From a virus, in IMG/VR virus record IMGVR_UViG_3300007539_000089, positions 1 through 33,502 of that record: a stretch of 33,502 nt of DNA, one strand, 5' to 3'. Within the stretch, counting starts at the first letter, position 1; each line of letters opens with the position of its first letter. This document shows positions 4,753 to 20,700 of this stretch, piece by piece. Below the pieces are notes generated by a model that worked only from the letters and a program-made list of their open reading frames with translations, was not told where the DNA came from and did no database searches. Both the position numbers and the translations under genes were made by a program.

Positions 4753-4964
4753 TGCTTGTCCGCGATCTTCGCAAATTCTTGAGCCACACGCTAGACGTTG
4801 ATGACGATGGCAATGAAATGGAAGTCTATATTTGCTGCGGCAACCTGCATTCATCAAAAATGGCCACCGCCTTCGTAGATGAAGACGGTGACCTTGTGCT
4901 AGTTCCTGAGTTCTGGAAAGAAACGATGGAAGACTTGGGAAGCTGGGAAGAATTTACTTCTTAG
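4752..4964 (+). CDS. Lone plus-strand acidic small protein
   Basis: A 70-residue protein rich in Asp and Glu, starting MLVRDLRKFLSHTLDVDDDG and continuing MEVYICCGNLHSS, then DEDGDLVLVPEFW. The N-terminal pattern (a short helix, acid loop, strand) resembles small phage proteins of the 'MTVKELIEKL..PDMEV' kind whose function is unknown. It is the only plus-strand gene within the head operon, reads against its neighbours, and overlaps the end of the next minus gene by 11 bases. It may be a moron-like insertion. No strong ribosome site is seen. Confidence 0.6.
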   Translation: MLVRDLRKFLSHTLDVDDDGNEMEVYICCGNLHSSKMATAFVDEDGDLVLVPEFWKETMEDLGSWEEFTS

Positions 4965-5433
4965 CGCGGCGACGTTTTTTAGGTGTCGTTTTGGCAGCAA
5001 ATTCACGCCTTGCTTTCAGCTCTTGATTGATCCTGGCGTCTCTTTTTGCTTGTGCAGCAGCTTTCCGCTGAGCTTTGACTGCAGGGCTGACTGGCTTGTT
5101 GGCTGATCTTGTGCGCTGGTAGCCAGTGTTTTGCGCTGCACGCTTTGCAGTTGACCTTTTGCGTTGCTGGCTACCTCCGCTATAGCGCTTGGATCCGGCA
5201 TCTCGTTTAGACAAATTAGTCAAGCGGCGCTGACCTTCTTTTGCTTTGTATGCAGCTTTAGCCGCACGACCAGCTTTTACGCTAGTGCCACCACCCTTGC
5301 CAGACTTTTGGAAGGCAATATCAGACTTGCGCGGCTTTTTGGATTTACTGCCACCGCGTCCACCTGAGCGGCCACCACCTCCGCCACCTCCGGCAAAGCG
5401 TCCCCGAGCATCGCGCTTGTATCTACGTGCCAT
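4954..5433 (-). CDS. Very basic Gly/Lys/Arg-rich protein of the head operon
   Basis: The preferred start is the ATG at 5433, giving MARRYKRDARGRFAG then a run of seven glycines; an in-frame GTG lies at 5454. By my count about 51 of 159 residues are Lys or Arg with only about 7 acidic, so it carries a large positive charge. The rest is low-complexity Ala/Ser/Gln with repeated KR and RR steps. A 'RYxRDxRGRFA' start is a recurring motif of small phage proteins near MuF genes. The composition suggests DNA or RNA binding, perhaps inside the head, but this is inference. Confidence 0.7.
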   Translation of the reverse strand: MARRYKRDARGRFAGGGGGGGRSGGRGGSKSKKPRKSDIAFQKSGKGGGTSVKAGRAAKAAYKAKEGQRRLTNLSKRDAGSKRYSGGSQQRKRSTAKRAAQNTGYQRTRSANKPVSPAVKAQRKAAAQAKRDARINQELKARREFAAKTTPKKRRRAKK

Positions 5434-5469
5434 TGACCGTAACGCATTTTCCACATCTTACTAACAGTT

Positions 5470-6660: not shown

Positions 6661-6953
6661 CAGTCAAGAATTCCCAGAAGCTCCGGCTCAATCTCAGTCA
6701 AAATTGAAACATCAGCGCCGCCGCGTAAAGCTTCTCCGACAATCATTGCAAATTGTGGAATCATGTCTTCTGCAGACTCATCTTCGTAGATGAGCTTAAT
6801 TTCGCTGACATCGTATACGCCTTCTTTTGTGAACCAAGAAAGCCGCACAATTGCAAATGTGTCATCAGGCAATTCACGCTTGCTAACGAATAACATTCGC
6901 TGACGCTCAAGCTCATCCTTCATGCCGAACAGCTTCCGCAACCATTTCATCAT
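6660..6953 (-). CDS. Small protein between portal and MuF genes
   Basis: A 97-residue protein, basic at the start (MMKWLRKLFGMKDELERQRM) and strongly acidic later (EDESAEDM, EIEPELLGILD). The middle has strands such as TFAIVRLSWF and VSEIKLIYE. It overlaps the portal stop by four bases (ATGA) and the MuF start by one, so it is translationally coupled in the head operon. I do not recognise the family. Conservation between portal and MuF in relatives would suggest a head assembly role. Confidence 0.7.
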   Translation of the reverse strand: MMKWLRKLFGMKDELERQRMLFVSKRELPDDTFAIVRLSWFTKEGVYDVSEIKLIYEDESAEDMIPQFAMIVGEALRGGADVSILTEIEPELLGILD

Positions 6954-8395
6954 GCCGGGATTTCATCCTCTTGATCGGATTCCGCCGAAGCCTCAGGCAT
7001 TTCAGGAGACGCTTCGGGTTCAGGCTGCTGCATCTCGATCAAGCCGCCGTTTTGAGTTGCCTCGAGTTCAGCCTCAACTTCGAAATCATCGCCTAGCACT
7101 TCGCCGTCTGCAAGCTGAATTAACAAAGTTTCTTGAGTGATGGTGCCTGCCGTGTAAAGCTGCAGCAGCGCCTGAATCTCTTGCGGCTCAAGGCGTGTGC
7201 CAAGAAAATCACGGTTGACCAGGCTGCTGCCAGCCTGCGCTTCCTGCAGGTAATCAGCATGGAACTGCAGACAATTGTCGATCAGATCCTGCATGTTTTG
7301 CGCGATCACCATCATGGTGGAATCGCCTTGGCTGCGGTCTAAACGCTTAGCCTCTGCAGTCTCTGCGCTTAGCTTTTGGCCTAGCACAGCAGACAAACCA
7401 AGGTCGTTGATCTGCTTTTCAATCTGATCAAGACGCTTGAATGATGCGTCAAACGATGCAGGATTAGGCGAGATGTATTCTGCACGGCCTTCAGCTGGGA
7501 ATGCAATAGCCTCACCAGGACCAGCGCTAACTTCTTCGGCTGCAGACGGGAAACCAAAAAACGCAAGCATCGGCACGTTTGACACGTGCATGATATTGTC
7601 GAGATCACTTTGAATCTGATAAGCCTTAAGGTTCAGCTCTGCAATGTCTGACAGCGGTGGGCGTGATTCAAATACGTTGACGCGGTTGCTGTAAGCAACG
7701 CTGAACGGAATGTAATCAAGGCTGGTTGTGCCTTCTTCAACAATTTTCATCTGACCTTTTTCATCGCGTTGGTGAATTTCAAATACACCAGGCGTCAACA
7801 CGCGAATCTGCTCAACTTCCTTTTCGCCGTAATCACCATCGGCAACAATAACCTTTTCAGCAAGGCGAAGCTGCACAAGCTTCTGTGCGCCGTCGACTAG
7901 CTCAAATCTTGCGCCAAGTATTTCGCGTGGCGTGTAGGTTACCCAATAGGGCCTGCCGTTACTCCCAGCAGCAGGAGCATCAACGAGCACACCAACGTGA
8001 CCGTAACGAATGCACCTACGAGCGGTTTCATAACACCAGACGTTGAGGTCGTTTCCTTGTAAGTCAACGTCAAACAGTTGCTCACGAATGTTGTCCGAAA
8101 CATCGTCCAACCTGACAGGCTTGCGCGTCAACATGCCAGCAAGCAAACGTTCGAGTCGATTTACGTAGGGCGGACAATTTGAACGGCTCAAACGATTGTC
8201 ATATGCGTCATCCAATTCACGAGGTTCTTGCGGCAAGTAACGCCGATGCTTTCGGCGCATCTCATATGTGCCGCCCAATAAATCTTCAATCAGGATCCAA
8301 TGTGGCTCTTGATTTACCCACGCCGCATTCGGATCGTTGACTTGTGAGACCTTTGCCGCCAATTGACGGTCGTAGAAGTTGTAACCGGAATACAC
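6950..8395 (-). CDS. Portal protein (DUF4055 type)
   Basis: A 481-residue protein of the DUF4055 family, which serves as the phage portal. Seen are the N-terminal YLPQEPRELDDAYDNRLSRS and the following NRLERLLAGMLTRKP, a central WVTYTPREILGARFE, DIAELNLKAYQIQSDLDNIM, and a late ETAEAKRLDRSQGD and helix region equivalent to the portal stem and crown. The acidic C-terminus is Glu/Pro/Ser rich. Translation starts at a GTG (8395). Portals form the dodecameric DNA channel at one capsid vertex. Neighbours (terminase upstream, MuF downstream) agree. Confidence 0.88.
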   Translation of the reverse strand: MYSGYNFYDRQLAAKVSQVNDPNAAWVNQEPHWILIEDLLGGTYEMRRKHRRYLPQEPRELDDAYDNRLSRSNCPPYVNRLERLLAGMLTRKPVRLDDVSDNIREQLFDVDLQGNDLNVWCYETARRCIRYGHVGVLVDAPAAGSNGRPYWVTYTPREILGARFELVDGAQKLVQLRLAEKVIVADGDYGEKEVEQIRVLTPGVFEIHQRDEKGQMKIVEEGTTSLDYIPFSVAYSNRVNVFESRPPLSDIAELNLKAYQIQSDLDNIMHVSNVPMLAFFGFPSAAEEVSAGPGEAIAFPAEGRAEYISPNPASFDASFKRLDQIEKQINDLGLSAVLGQKLSAETAEAKRLDRSQGDSTMMVIAQNMQDLIDNCLQFHADYLQEAQAGSSLVNRDFLGTRLEPQEIQALLQLYTAGTITQETLLIQLADGEVLGDDFEVEAELEATQNGGLIEMQQPEPEASPEMPEASAESDQEDEIPA

Positions 8396-8425: not shown

Positions 8426-8770
8426 TTAGACCGATGCAGTTGCAGCAGTTAGCTGAACGCTATTACGTCCAAGCTTGATCTCAAACTCTTGACCAGGTTC
8501 AAAGCCAAGCTCTTTGACGTAAGCGCTGCCAACCAGCAAGTTACCATTGCCCTGCACTTTGGTGCGATGGGTAAGCTTGCGGCCCATCTTTTTAGGCTTT
8601 TTCAGGTCAATGCCTTTTGCCAACAGCACAGCTTCGTAAAAAGCGGTGTAGTTGATGGATTCGCTGCCATCAGTGTTAGCGCTGACGTAACCGCATTCGC
8701 GAATCAGCTCAGAACGAGGAACATCGCCAAGCTGACGAATGCGCTTGAGTAGTTCAGTGCCTTCGAGCAT
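8426..8770 (-). CDS. cyAbrB-type cyanobacterial transcription regulator
   Basis: With the ATG at 8770 this is a 114-residue protein: LEGTELLKRIRQLGDVPRSE and a RECGYVS segment at the N-terminus, SINYTAFYEAVLLAKGIDL in the middle, and an AbrB-like C-terminal domain TKVQGNGNLLVGSAYVKEL then GFEPGQEFEIKLGR. That order of motifs is the hallmark of cyanobacterial AbrB (cyAbrB, as in Synechocystis Sll0359 and Sll0822), which regulates carbon, nitrogen and stress genes. It sits between terL and portal with its own promoter (8794-8822). Its presence implies a cyanobacterial host and capture of a host regulator. Confidence 0.88.
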   Translation of the reverse strand: MLEGTELLKRIRQLGDVPRSELIRECGYVSANTDGSESINYTAFYEAVLLAKGIDLKKPKKMGRKLTHRTKVQGNGNLLVGSAYVKELGFEPGQEFEIKLGRNSVQLTAATASV

Positions 8771-8793
8771 GTTGAGTAAACAGGAACACTGAA

Positions 8794-8822
8794 AAGATAA
8801 CAAACAACATTCCCTTTGTCTA
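8794..8822 (-). promoter_or_regulatory. Sigma-70 promoter for the cyAbrB gene
   Basis: On the minus strand TAGACA (8822-8817, containing the terL stop codon), a 17-base spacer, and TATCTT (8799-8794) preceded by TG in the extended -10 position. Transcription would start near 8787, about 17 bases before the cyAbrB ATG. Here the -10 begins with the usual T, unlike the early-region promoter family. Confidence 0.5.
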
Positions 8823-10154
8823 GTACAATCTGATTCCTGTTCCGCGACCTGATCGTGCGTGCAGTGGGTTGAACAACCTCCAAACTGTGTAGCCCAGCGC
8901 ATCGTTCATGTGGTCGTAGCCTGCATCTTTGTCGGGCTCGCCTTTTTCGCTGTAACTTTGAAGTTCAAGGCATTCGATCGTGCGCTTGCAGTTTTTGGTG
9001 ACCTGCAGCCTTATTTGACCTTTCCCGTTTTCCAGCAAAGCTTGAACAGAAGCCACCCGATCACGGACGGGAGGATTTGACCGGCCCGACTGGTTGCTGA
9101 AACCATAGGTCTCCAAGATTTGAATGTCAGTCTGCGCGGCATTCGTGCTTCGATTTCCGCCTGATGCGTCAGGGTAGACATAGATGCGACGGTCGGCATA
9201 TCGTCGTTTGATCTCCTGGGCCAACGTATCGGTGTCATGGCTGCCGCTTACTTCGTCAATAATCATCAGTTTGTCATTCAGTCTTACACCGATGACAGCA
9301 GACATATTGCCAACGTTAAAGTCAACGCCAACATGCAAAGGCTCATTACCTGTATCAACGCTGTCTATGACATGCTTTTCGCGATCGAAGCGGTCGTAAA
9401 CCTGACCGGTGGTTAAATTAACAAATTCTCCCTCCAAATACGCTTTTAACAAACTAGGATCATAATTAGCCTTGAGTCGCTCAACGAAGTCATCCGGCAA
9501 ATGTGGATTATCCGTTGTCTTCATCTTGATCAACTTGCGATCAGTGCGCGTAAGCGCATCAGGGCTGCCAAATTCGTTGTAAAGCCACTTGAAGCCCTCT
9601 GGCGTGGATGCAGCAGCAAACTGCCGTACTACACCGGAGCGAAGACGACCAAGAATTTTCGGGAACGCTTTTGAGGTGATCGAATAGTTAACAACGTCTA
9701 CCTCATCAGCGACGCAAAAGGCTAAGTTTAAGCCGATAATGCGCTGGTAATTTTCAAAGCTGCGGCACAGAATTTTTGTGTCTCCGTTTGGAAGATGCAA
9801 CACATATTCAGGCAATGGTGATGCCCTAAACGTATGCGGGATCTCGTAGGCCTCTAAAAAATTATCAAAATCATTCAACCAAATATCACGGATCAGCGGT
9901 CCAGTGGGCTCCATAACACAGCCCACATAGCCTTGATTAGCAATCGCGAGTGATACAACTTTCGCCGCCAGGCTTCTCGTTTTGCCTGCACCGTAGCCCG
10001 CAGAGATCGCGAGGATTTGCGAGTCTTCATCGTCAACGAACGCTAGTTGGCCTGGGTGTAAGTCTGCCTTGATTCGCGCCAACAGTGCATCAGCGTCCAA
10101 TGCTGAGGCGTCGCCTAAGACATGACCAATCGGCGCAGCGTCAAGGATGCTCAA
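8820..10154 (-). CDS. terL: Terminase large subunit
   Basis: A 444-residue packaging motor. The ATPase domain has Walker A AGYGAGKT (residues 52-59) and Walker B AFCVADEVD (145-153); a coupling segment AAASTPEG follows at 180-187. The nuclease domain shows GVDFN (276-280), IIDE (298-301), YPDASG (327-332) and the late YDHMNDALGY (413-422), the pattern of RNase H-like terminase nucleases. It cuts concatemeric DNA and drives it into the procapsid through the portal. The start is a TTG at 10154 whose TTGA overlaps the preceding stop; no ATG lies near. Confidence 0.95.
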   Translation of the reverse strand: MSILDAAPIGHVLGDASALDADALLARIKADLHPGQLAFVDDEDSQILAISAGYGAGKTRSLAAKVVSLAIANQGYVGCVMEPTGPLIRDIWLNDFDNFLEAYEIPHTFRASPLPEYVLHLPNGDTKILCRSFENYQRIIGLNLAFCVADEVDVVNYSITSKAFPKILGRLRSGVVRQFAAASTPEGFKWLYNEFGSPDALTRTDRKLIKMKTTDNPHLPDDFVERLKANYDPSLLKAYLEGEFVNLTTGQVYDRFDREKHVIDSVDTGNEPLHVGVDFNVGNMSAVIGVRLNDKLMIIDEVSGSHDTDTLAQEIKRRYADRRIYVYPDASGGNRSTNAAQTDIQILETYGFSNQSGRSNPPVRDRVASVQALLENGKGQIRLQVTKNCKRTIECLELQSYSEKGEPDKDAGYDHMNDALGYTVWRLFNPLHARSGRGTGIRLY

Positions 10155-19728: not shown

Positions 19729-20700
19729 ATGCAACCCGACGCCTTCAAAAGTTATCTGAACGCGATTGGGAACTACCCATTGCTGACAGCTGATCAAGAG
19801 ATTCAGCTGTCTCGGCAAATTCAACGAATGCTTGAACTGAAAGAAGCTGACCGTGAGCTAAGTTCAACTGAACAGCGCCAAGTTAAAATTGGTGAACGTG
19901 CCAAAGAAAAACTGATCAAGTGCAACCTAAAGCTTGTCGTTCATATCGCAAAACGATACACCAGGCGCCTTGTCAGCAACAACATGGAAACCCTTGATTT
20001 AGTGCAAGAAGGCAACATGGGCCTTGACCGCGCAGCCGAAAAGTTTGACGGCACACGCGGTTACAAATTCAGCACTTACGCTTACTGGTGGATTCGACAA
20101 GCGATTACACGCGCTATCGACACACATGAACGCGTCGTTCGTATTCCGGCCAATTCTCTAGAAAGGCTGTTTAAAGTTCTCAGGTTTCAACATGAGCATT
20201 TCACGACTACAAACCGCTACCCAACAATGGCCGAAATGGCTGAGCATGTTGAGATGAAAGAGCCTGACTTGCGAATGTTGCTTGAGCGCTCAACACCGCA
20301 TACCAGCTTGGACGTTTTAGCAAGAGACGAAGGCAGCAGGCTTTTAGATTTGATGGCCGACAAGTCTCATGTTGACGATGATTTTACTCCGTCAGAAACG
20401 AGAGAACGACACGATCAATTGCATGACGCTTTAGGTGCGTTGAACGAAAAACAACGCGTGATCATTGAAATGTACTATGGATTGAAAGATGGCAGAGAAG
20501 TCAGCCTAAAAGAGATTGGCGAAACATTAGGTTTGTCACGCGAAGTTGTGCGAAAGCACCGCGATCGCGGGCAACGCATTTTGCGTCAAAAATTTAGCCA
20601 GTCAATTGGAAGGCAAGAGCCGTTGCCACCAGCTACGCTCCCGGTCAGCGCACCTGTCAGCATCACTTACAGCAGGCGTTTCGAGAAGCTTTTCATCTGA
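19729..20700 (+). CDS. RpoD-like sigma-70 factor (group 2 type)
   Basis: A 323-residue sigma factor starting at region 1.2 (SYLNAIGNYPLLTADQEIQL) and lacking region 1.1. Region 2 (about 66-140) contains NLKLVVHIAKRY, the melting aromatics in YKFSTYAYWWIRQAITRAI and RVVRIP. The -10 contacts Gln124 and Thr127 and the region 3.0 Glu145 (extended -10) are retained. Region 4 (238-287) has LNEKQRVIIEMYYGL and an HTH with Arg271, Glu272, Arg275 for the -35. It would redirect host RNA polymerase. The last 33 residues are unusual and overlap the opposite-strand gene. It looks acquired from a cyanobacterial group 2 sigma. Confidence 0.92.
   Translation: MQPDAFKSYLNAIGNYPLLTADQEIQLSRQIQRMLELKEADRELSSTEQRQVKIGERAKEKLIKCNLKLVVHIAKRYTRRLVSNNMETLDLVQEGNMGLDRAAEKFDGTRGYKFSTYAYWWIRQAITRAIDTHERVVRIPANSLERLFKVLRFQHEHFTTTNRYPTMAEMAEHVEMKEPDLRMLLERSTPHTSLDVLARDEGSRLLDLMADKSHVDDDFTPSETRERHDQLHDALGALNEKQRVIIEMYYGLKDGREVSLKEIGETLGLSREVVRKHRDRGQRILRQKFSQSIGRQEPLPPATLPVSAPVSITYSRRFEKLFI

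Follow-up and report, generated by a model that had tools for sequence, protein, structure and literature searches.

A phage-borne cyAbrB gene kept between terL and portal in uncultured cyanobacterial siphoviruses suggests a role in the takeover of host DNA control

The locus and the encoded protein

The window, i.e. the whole stretch of DNA analysed (IMG/VR record IMGVR_UViG_3300007539_000089; 33,502 nucleotides), is a linear, partial virus record of 33.5 kb with a GC content of 50%, the phage as a whole not being AT-rich. It carries terL, portal, head, connector and tail genes, together with genes for a Sak-like annealing protein, an SSB, an exonuclease and a sigma-70 factor (19729..20700, plus strand), the second regulator in the record, which might read phage promoters. 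The gene under study, abrB (8426..8770, minus strand; ATG at 8770-8768, stop codon TAA at 8428-8426), encodes a protein of 114 amino acid residues that begins with MLEGTELL, ends with TATASV and has a pI of 9.30. The original prediction had given this open reading frame without its strand; the frame exists on the minus strand, and the plus-strand interval holds no open frame. As predicted, abrB sits in the packaging operon, 49 bp from the upstream terL (8820..10154, minus strand; PF03237, PF17289; phrog_2) and 30 bp from the downstream portal gene (6950..8395, minus strand; phrog_145, 3.5e-114). Host contamination was rejected, as phage structural genes flank abrB and 0/80 host loci carry another window gene. 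Elsewhere in the window, a very basic MARRY..GRFA protein is encoded after a Mu-F-like head gene (4954-5454, minus strand), and a longer protein of similar appearance lies between terL and abrB in two related loci (L011:1888-3045 and L017:4860-5825).

Residues 43-107 matched PF14250 (3e-23; 82.1 bits against a Pfam cut-off of 25); the protein had no PHROGs family, and NCBIfam gave nothing above cut-off. The N-domain (residues 1-55; 8606..8770, minus strand), modelled as helix-helix-beta hairpin-helix, is common to host cyAbrBs and to the stand-alone gp074 of P-TIM68, whose alignment is restricted to abrB residues 1-51. It contains Cys26 of a CGY motif (8693..8695, minus strand), at the position of the conserved cyAbrB cysteine. 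The C-terminal AbrB-like DNA-binding domain (residues 64-114; 8429..8581, minus strand), recognized from PF14250 and the structural model, has no acidic tail behind it. The two conserved cyAbrB parts therefore do follow one another in the order originally claimed, and with a PF14250 C-domain above the Pfam cut-off and a conserved, CGY-bearing N-domain ahead of it, abrB is a full-length cyAbrB in domain terms. Given the phage structural genes throughout the window and the PF14250 homology, it is a phage-encoded homologue of a host nucleoid-associated protein, and there is hardly any doubt that it represents a genuine phage cyAbrB. The CGY-motif cysteine was found in 54/54 phage copies and in 169 of the 177 host copies scored (L165, cut by a contig end, was omitted from both the cysteine and the acidic-tail counts, and host proteins longer than 200 residues from the cysteine count). 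According to the available part of PMC4264147, the single conserved cysteine of cyAbrB2 is glutathionylated, which affects oligomerisation and DNA binding; because that cysteine is single and widely conserved, Cys26 is equated with it.

The AlphaFold2 model of the protein (75 sequences) reached a mean pLDDT of 77 and a pTM of 0.44. Its C-domain (residues 67-114) resembled SpoVT (Z 6.5), MazE (6.1) and AbrB (5.1-6.0), so that an AbrB swapped-hairpin fold is predicted with moderate confidence; Foldseek found no abrB match in the PDB at E ≤ 0.001. The N-domain model showed a weak resemblance to winged-helix proteins (Z up to 2.8), and such a domain could bind DNA. The structural neighbours, being folds of AbrB/MazE/VapB type, would also suit the antitoxin of a toxin-antitoxin pair or a lysogeny repressor, a reading that is very improbable. 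An antitoxin was rejected since the neighbours of abrB are terL and portal and no toxin-sized gene adjoins it; as for a lysogeny repressor, no integrase was found among the ORFs scanned in this partial record, the relative KBS2A is reported to have no integration elements, and portal relatives occur in 15 of 400 host-family genomes (best identity 53%). The top BFVD matches were P-TIM68 gp074, which aligned on the abrB N-domain with a TM of 0.94 of its own length, and A0A6S4PMF7 of the uncultured phage MedDCM-OCT-S39-C11, the one annotated phage entry of AbrB kind encountered there. The latter, a 118-residue 'AbrB family transcriptional regulator', aligned over 114 columns (E 2.8e-8) with 21% identity in the structural alignment; MedDCM-OCT phages were absent among the matches listed in the AbrB literature search.

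Promoter and leader

The promoter of its own that had been claimed for abrB is supported by conservation as a predicted sigma-70-like element, TAGACA-N17-TATCTT (8794..8822, minus strand), with TG one base ahead of the -10 box and a -35 box overlapping the terL stop codon. TAGACA-N17-TA[TC]CTT was present at 52-53 bases ahead of the ATG in 25/25 loci of the window's subgroup (L002-L018 and eight L130-type loci); the leader of other abrB subgroups differs from this type. When L005, L009 and L017 were compared with L003, the abrB region of which is identical to that of the window in protein, the block -58..-1 was 53-79% alike and the block -120..-59 26-35% alike, the upstream DNA being unrelated. 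A generic promoter scan of the window (4 found, 3.0 expected) is by itself no evidence for a promoter. Because the predicted promoter is of host sigma-70 type, abrB expression need not await the late genes.

The promoter region has a GC content of 35%, and in 14 of the 25 loci an inverted repeat, TGTTC-N8/9-GAAC, lies between the -10 box and the start codon (imperfect in the window copy, 8771-8790), a hint of a possible operator in the form of an autoregulatory palindrome. Both features would fit a regulator that binds promoters of the phage, its own among them, and sets the timing of the packaging/head operon while host cyAbrB remains untouched. This alternative, possible though unlikely, is also favoured by the terL-portal position kept over divergent phages, but the window and the L130 type both have an imperfect repeat, and the exact TAGACA-N17-TANCTT occurs once in the window, at the abrB promoter, so that no regulon is visible.

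Distribution and synteny among viruses

Two scans of IMG/VR yielded 85 relatives, of which the best 80 were kept and 53 classed as terL-portal (siphovirus) type. Among these 53 terL-portal-type loci, drawn from the best 80 of 85 relatives, 51 have portal directly downstream of abrB and 48 have terL upstream of it. The locus ends ahead of portal in L013 and L165, starts within about 300 bp upstream in L007, L015, L112 and L115, and shows no terL match in 1.5 kb upstream of abrB in L016. Gene abrB and portal are still together in the seven loci where terL is a different one, of 29-31% identity (L121, L122, L153, L156, L160, L161 and L164). A separate portal scan returned at least 80 loci, 70 of them with at least 430 bp visible upstream; among the matches listed, abrB was present in 50 of these 70 portal relatives, namely in 3/3 at a portal identity of at least 95%, 18/18 at 85-95%, 2/3 at 80-85% and 27/46 at 70-80%. 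Sorted by terL, again among the matches listed, it was present in 41/41 with at least 65% identity to the window's terL, in 4/20 with 27-31% and in 5/9 of the remainder. Absence from close relatives, which the original prediction had named as a ground against itself, was not found: among the matches listed, all 21 loci with a portal identity of at least 85% and at least 430 bp visible upstream carry the gene, so this objection fails. The four nearest cultured phages, KBS-S-2A, S-H1, MED4-117 and MED4-184, whose terL is 67-74% identical to that of the window, possess no abrB, with other genes or no gene at the site, which counts against the generality of the original reading, and a search of 50,697 phage records brought up no full-length cyAbrB. 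Known hosts of relatives include Synechococcus WH7803. The gene can serve to mark a large group of cyanosiphoviruses that are uncultured and whose cultured relatives do without it.

A second placement was met in L123 and L126, which have a lambda-family portal and a protease-capsid gene and in which abrB belongs to the head module; it is another point in favour of a regulator acting on phage promoters. Another group of viral cyAbrBs, most of them extended at the N-terminus and bearing an acidic tail, occupies an early module (L125, L127, L128, L132, L133, L138, L142, L144, L146, L150, L151 and L157) with genes for O-like replication, RecT, exonuclease VIII and, in some, a sigma factor. Of the 27 loci that are not of terL-portal type, 12 have at least one early-module gene near the viral cyAbrB. 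The basic pI, the location between terL and portal and the tracking of window-type terL (41/41 versus 4/20 among the matches listed) would be in line with a role in DNA packaging or in the virion, the protein being a basic DNA binder that works in packaging or is carried in the capsid. Its separate sigma-70-like promoter, the cultured phages that have a window-type terL (67-72%) and no abrB, and the early-module viral clade, showing that phage cyAbrBs need not adjoin packaging genes, make such a role quite improbable.

Comparison with host cyAbrB and phylogeny

The claim that the protein is strongly cyanobacterial was borne out, PF14250 being present in 61/61 genomes of the Synechococcus-type family (1-13 copies each), 40/98 of the wider phylum and 1/14 control genomes, that one being Synechococcus elongatus. 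The best 80 host loci match abrB at 53-60% identity. Host cyAbrB1 and cyAbrB2 (sll0359 and sll0822 type; PF14250) have the same two-domain order, the conserved cysteine and an AbrB-like C-domain, whereas the phage lineage is distinguished by the lack of an acidic tail, a shorter stretch ahead of the C-domain (median 27 versus 31 residues), a diverged C-domain and its location in a head/packaging operon. An acidic tail, i.e. at least two acidic residues after the last strand, was scored in 0/54 phage copies, 171/178 host copies and 25/26 other viral copies; it is usual in hosts and not defining of cyAbrB, and its loss in the phages is one evolutionary event, not many.

In the 21 phage representatives, identity to the best host protein was 65-98% in the N-domain and 43-74% in the C-domain. 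The N-domain was the closer of the two in 20 of them, the exception being the window's own type (65 versus 67), whereas in host-host controls it was higher in 29/102 (medians 91 for N and 93 for C). The Wilcoxon p of 9e-5 for this pattern ignores the kinship of the 21 related representatives and is no honest probability. Third codon positions of the best host matches of the N-domain are 26-56% alike, which argues that the match is old and selected and not due to recent transfer; a recent transfer from a present host was likewise rejected, the best host identity being about 60%. Strong host-like constraint on the N-domain, seen in most subgroups, would be unneeded in a regulator of phage promoters only, although a C-domain that differs from that of hosts and has been exchanged among close phages (see below) would suit it. 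A further alternative holds that the protein imitates host cyAbrB at carbon/nitrogen and photosynthesis promoters, much like an auxiliary metabolic gene; host cyAbrBs do act on carbon and nitrogen genes, according to the available part of PMC11368403, and the redox-sensitive cysteine is kept in all 54 phage copies. This is improbable, however, given a DNA-binding half with 43-74% identity to the best host against a host-host median of 93%, a divergence from which phage and host target sites probably differ.

The phylogenetic comparison with host cyAbrB suggested in the original prediction set the phage copies apart: in an unrooted tree of 78 rows and 121 columns, which omits five long rows (L168, L183, L186, L166 and L235), the 21 phage representatives, L123 and L126 included, fall on one side of a branch with support of 100/99. 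The 83-row tree with the five long rows in is less clean, as the divergent host rows L183 and L186, together with L168, join the phage set (96/97), which is probably long-branch attraction and still evidence against one clean lineage. A single lineage for the 19 siphovirus representatives without L123 and L126 is a candidate grouping, which the AU test did not reject (p 0.0935). dN/dS values (NG86) ranged from 0.02 to 0.21 in the 12 informative pairs of 13 related pairs computed, the 13th having two synonymous changes and no others. On these sequence comparisons abrB is under purifying selection, and its frame, kept across divergent relatives at such ratios, is beyond chance. In L130-type phages, whose terL and portal are 86-92% identical to those of the window, the N-half of abrB is 85% like that of L017 and 59% like that of the window, and the C-half is 41-48% identical to both; therefore, either the abrB locus was exchanged between close phages or its DNA-binding half was replaced.

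Possible function

According to the available excerpts of the cited articles, cyAbrB2 is a proposed nucleoid-associated protein of cyanobacteria, a status it was given only in 2024; its DNA targets are AT-rich regions and IS elements, and it also interacts with cyAbrB1 (PMC11368403). The DNA binding of cyAbrBs is of limited specificity (PMC9241938). Phage regulators of Lsr2 type are known (PMC8612146), and truncated or phage-borne silencer homologues interfere via dimerisation (PMC7074111), again as excerpted. Actinobacteriophage Lsr2-type regulators are a parallel case, in that phages encode a relative of a host nucleoid-associated protein and its synteny is group-specific; they differ from phage cyAbrB in protein family and host phylum and are over-represented in temperate phages (PMC8612146), whereas the window ORFs scanned contained no lysogeny gene. 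Phage- and plasmid-borne H-NS homologues and truncations interfere through a shared dimerisation part (PMC7074111, available part), a mode that is also proposed here for phage cyAbrB, although its main form is full length, the N-domain-only form being that of P-TIM68. Phage-borne homologues of host nucleoid-associated regulators are therefore already known, and the cyanobacterial phage case is new within the literature searched, no description of a phage cyAbrB gene having been found in the accessible portions of the literature searched on cyanophage AbrB.

The retention of this gene in this place suggests that it helps the virus to take over host DNA control, and mimicry of the host protein is plausible for a cyAbrB that has both domains and the conserved cysteine. 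In the mechanism favoured here, phage cyAbrB would assemble with host cyAbrB and redirect or block it, to which a probability of about 0.42 is assigned. A picocyanobacterial siphovirus lineage would have acquired a host cyAbrB gene once and kept it between terL and portal as a cassette of a sigma-70-like promoter and abrB. Host RNA polymerase would transcribe abrB from this promoter, and this transcription would probably precede that of the late operon or not depend on it. The phage N-domain, assumed to be the oligomerisation domain, may then form assemblies of its own as well as mixed ones with host cyAbrB1/cyAbrB2, and the diverged, tail-less, basic C-domain may alter the DNA preference of the mixed complexes. 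Host cyAbrB, coating AT-rich and foreign DNA, would be drawn off phage and host promoters or redirected, and phage cyAbrB would act as a counter-silencing and takeover factor in the manner of phage-encoded Lsr2/H-NS homologues. Several observations argue against this mechanism: the N-over-C pattern does not hold for the copy in the window itself, abrB is missing from four cultured relatives, the tail loss is a single event, the window has a GC content of 50% and the phage overall is not AT-rich, foreign-DNA silencing was demonstrated for Synechocystis cyAbrB2 and not for picocyanobacterial paralogues, and the weak winged-helix likeness of the N-domain model could mean DNA binding.

A more specific version of this reading is unlikely. 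It would have a purpose-built phage protein enter host cyAbrB complexes via a host-identical N-domain (identity up to 98% at saturated synonymous sites). Having lost the acidic tail, and with a DNA-binding domain that has acquired new targets and moved between phage lineages, this small early protein would on its own redirect the protein that coats the host chromosome. If this is true, phage attacks on H-NS and Lsr2 would have an equivalent in cyanobacteria, and the N-only protein of P-TIM68 would be its dominant-negative version. A phage lineage with a modified cyAbrB makes a phage-host conflict over cyAbrB2 directly testable, and phage cyAbrB offers a natural tail-less variant from which the role of the acidic tail can be learned.

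Other cyAbrB forms

In cyanomyoviruses the cyAbrB N-domain occurs alone in P-TIM68 gp074 (L023:3001-3159; 52 residues, no AbrB C-domain), with another C-terminus in B23 gp246 (L024:2905-3333), and without an AbrB C-domain in L269:3001-3156. These proteins are possible dominant-negative forms; N-only relatives of gp074 in viral contigs amounted to 1/51 candidate stretches. The host-family genome G264 encodes a 52-53% portal relative and, after it on the other strand, a divergent cyAbrB (L338:3010-3294, minus strand; 38% identity, PF14250 36.8 bits), possibly a prophage with a different arrangement. Finally, genomes of Candidatus Synechococcus spongiarum type carry cyAbrB and a class I tRNA synthetase in one open frame, PF14250 preceding PF00133 (L187:1-2094 and L264:2-1387, minus strand; L085:3547-6327, plus strand, from Synechococcus sp. 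SB0668_bin_13), and by our own reading of its residues the synthetase part looks ValRS-like.
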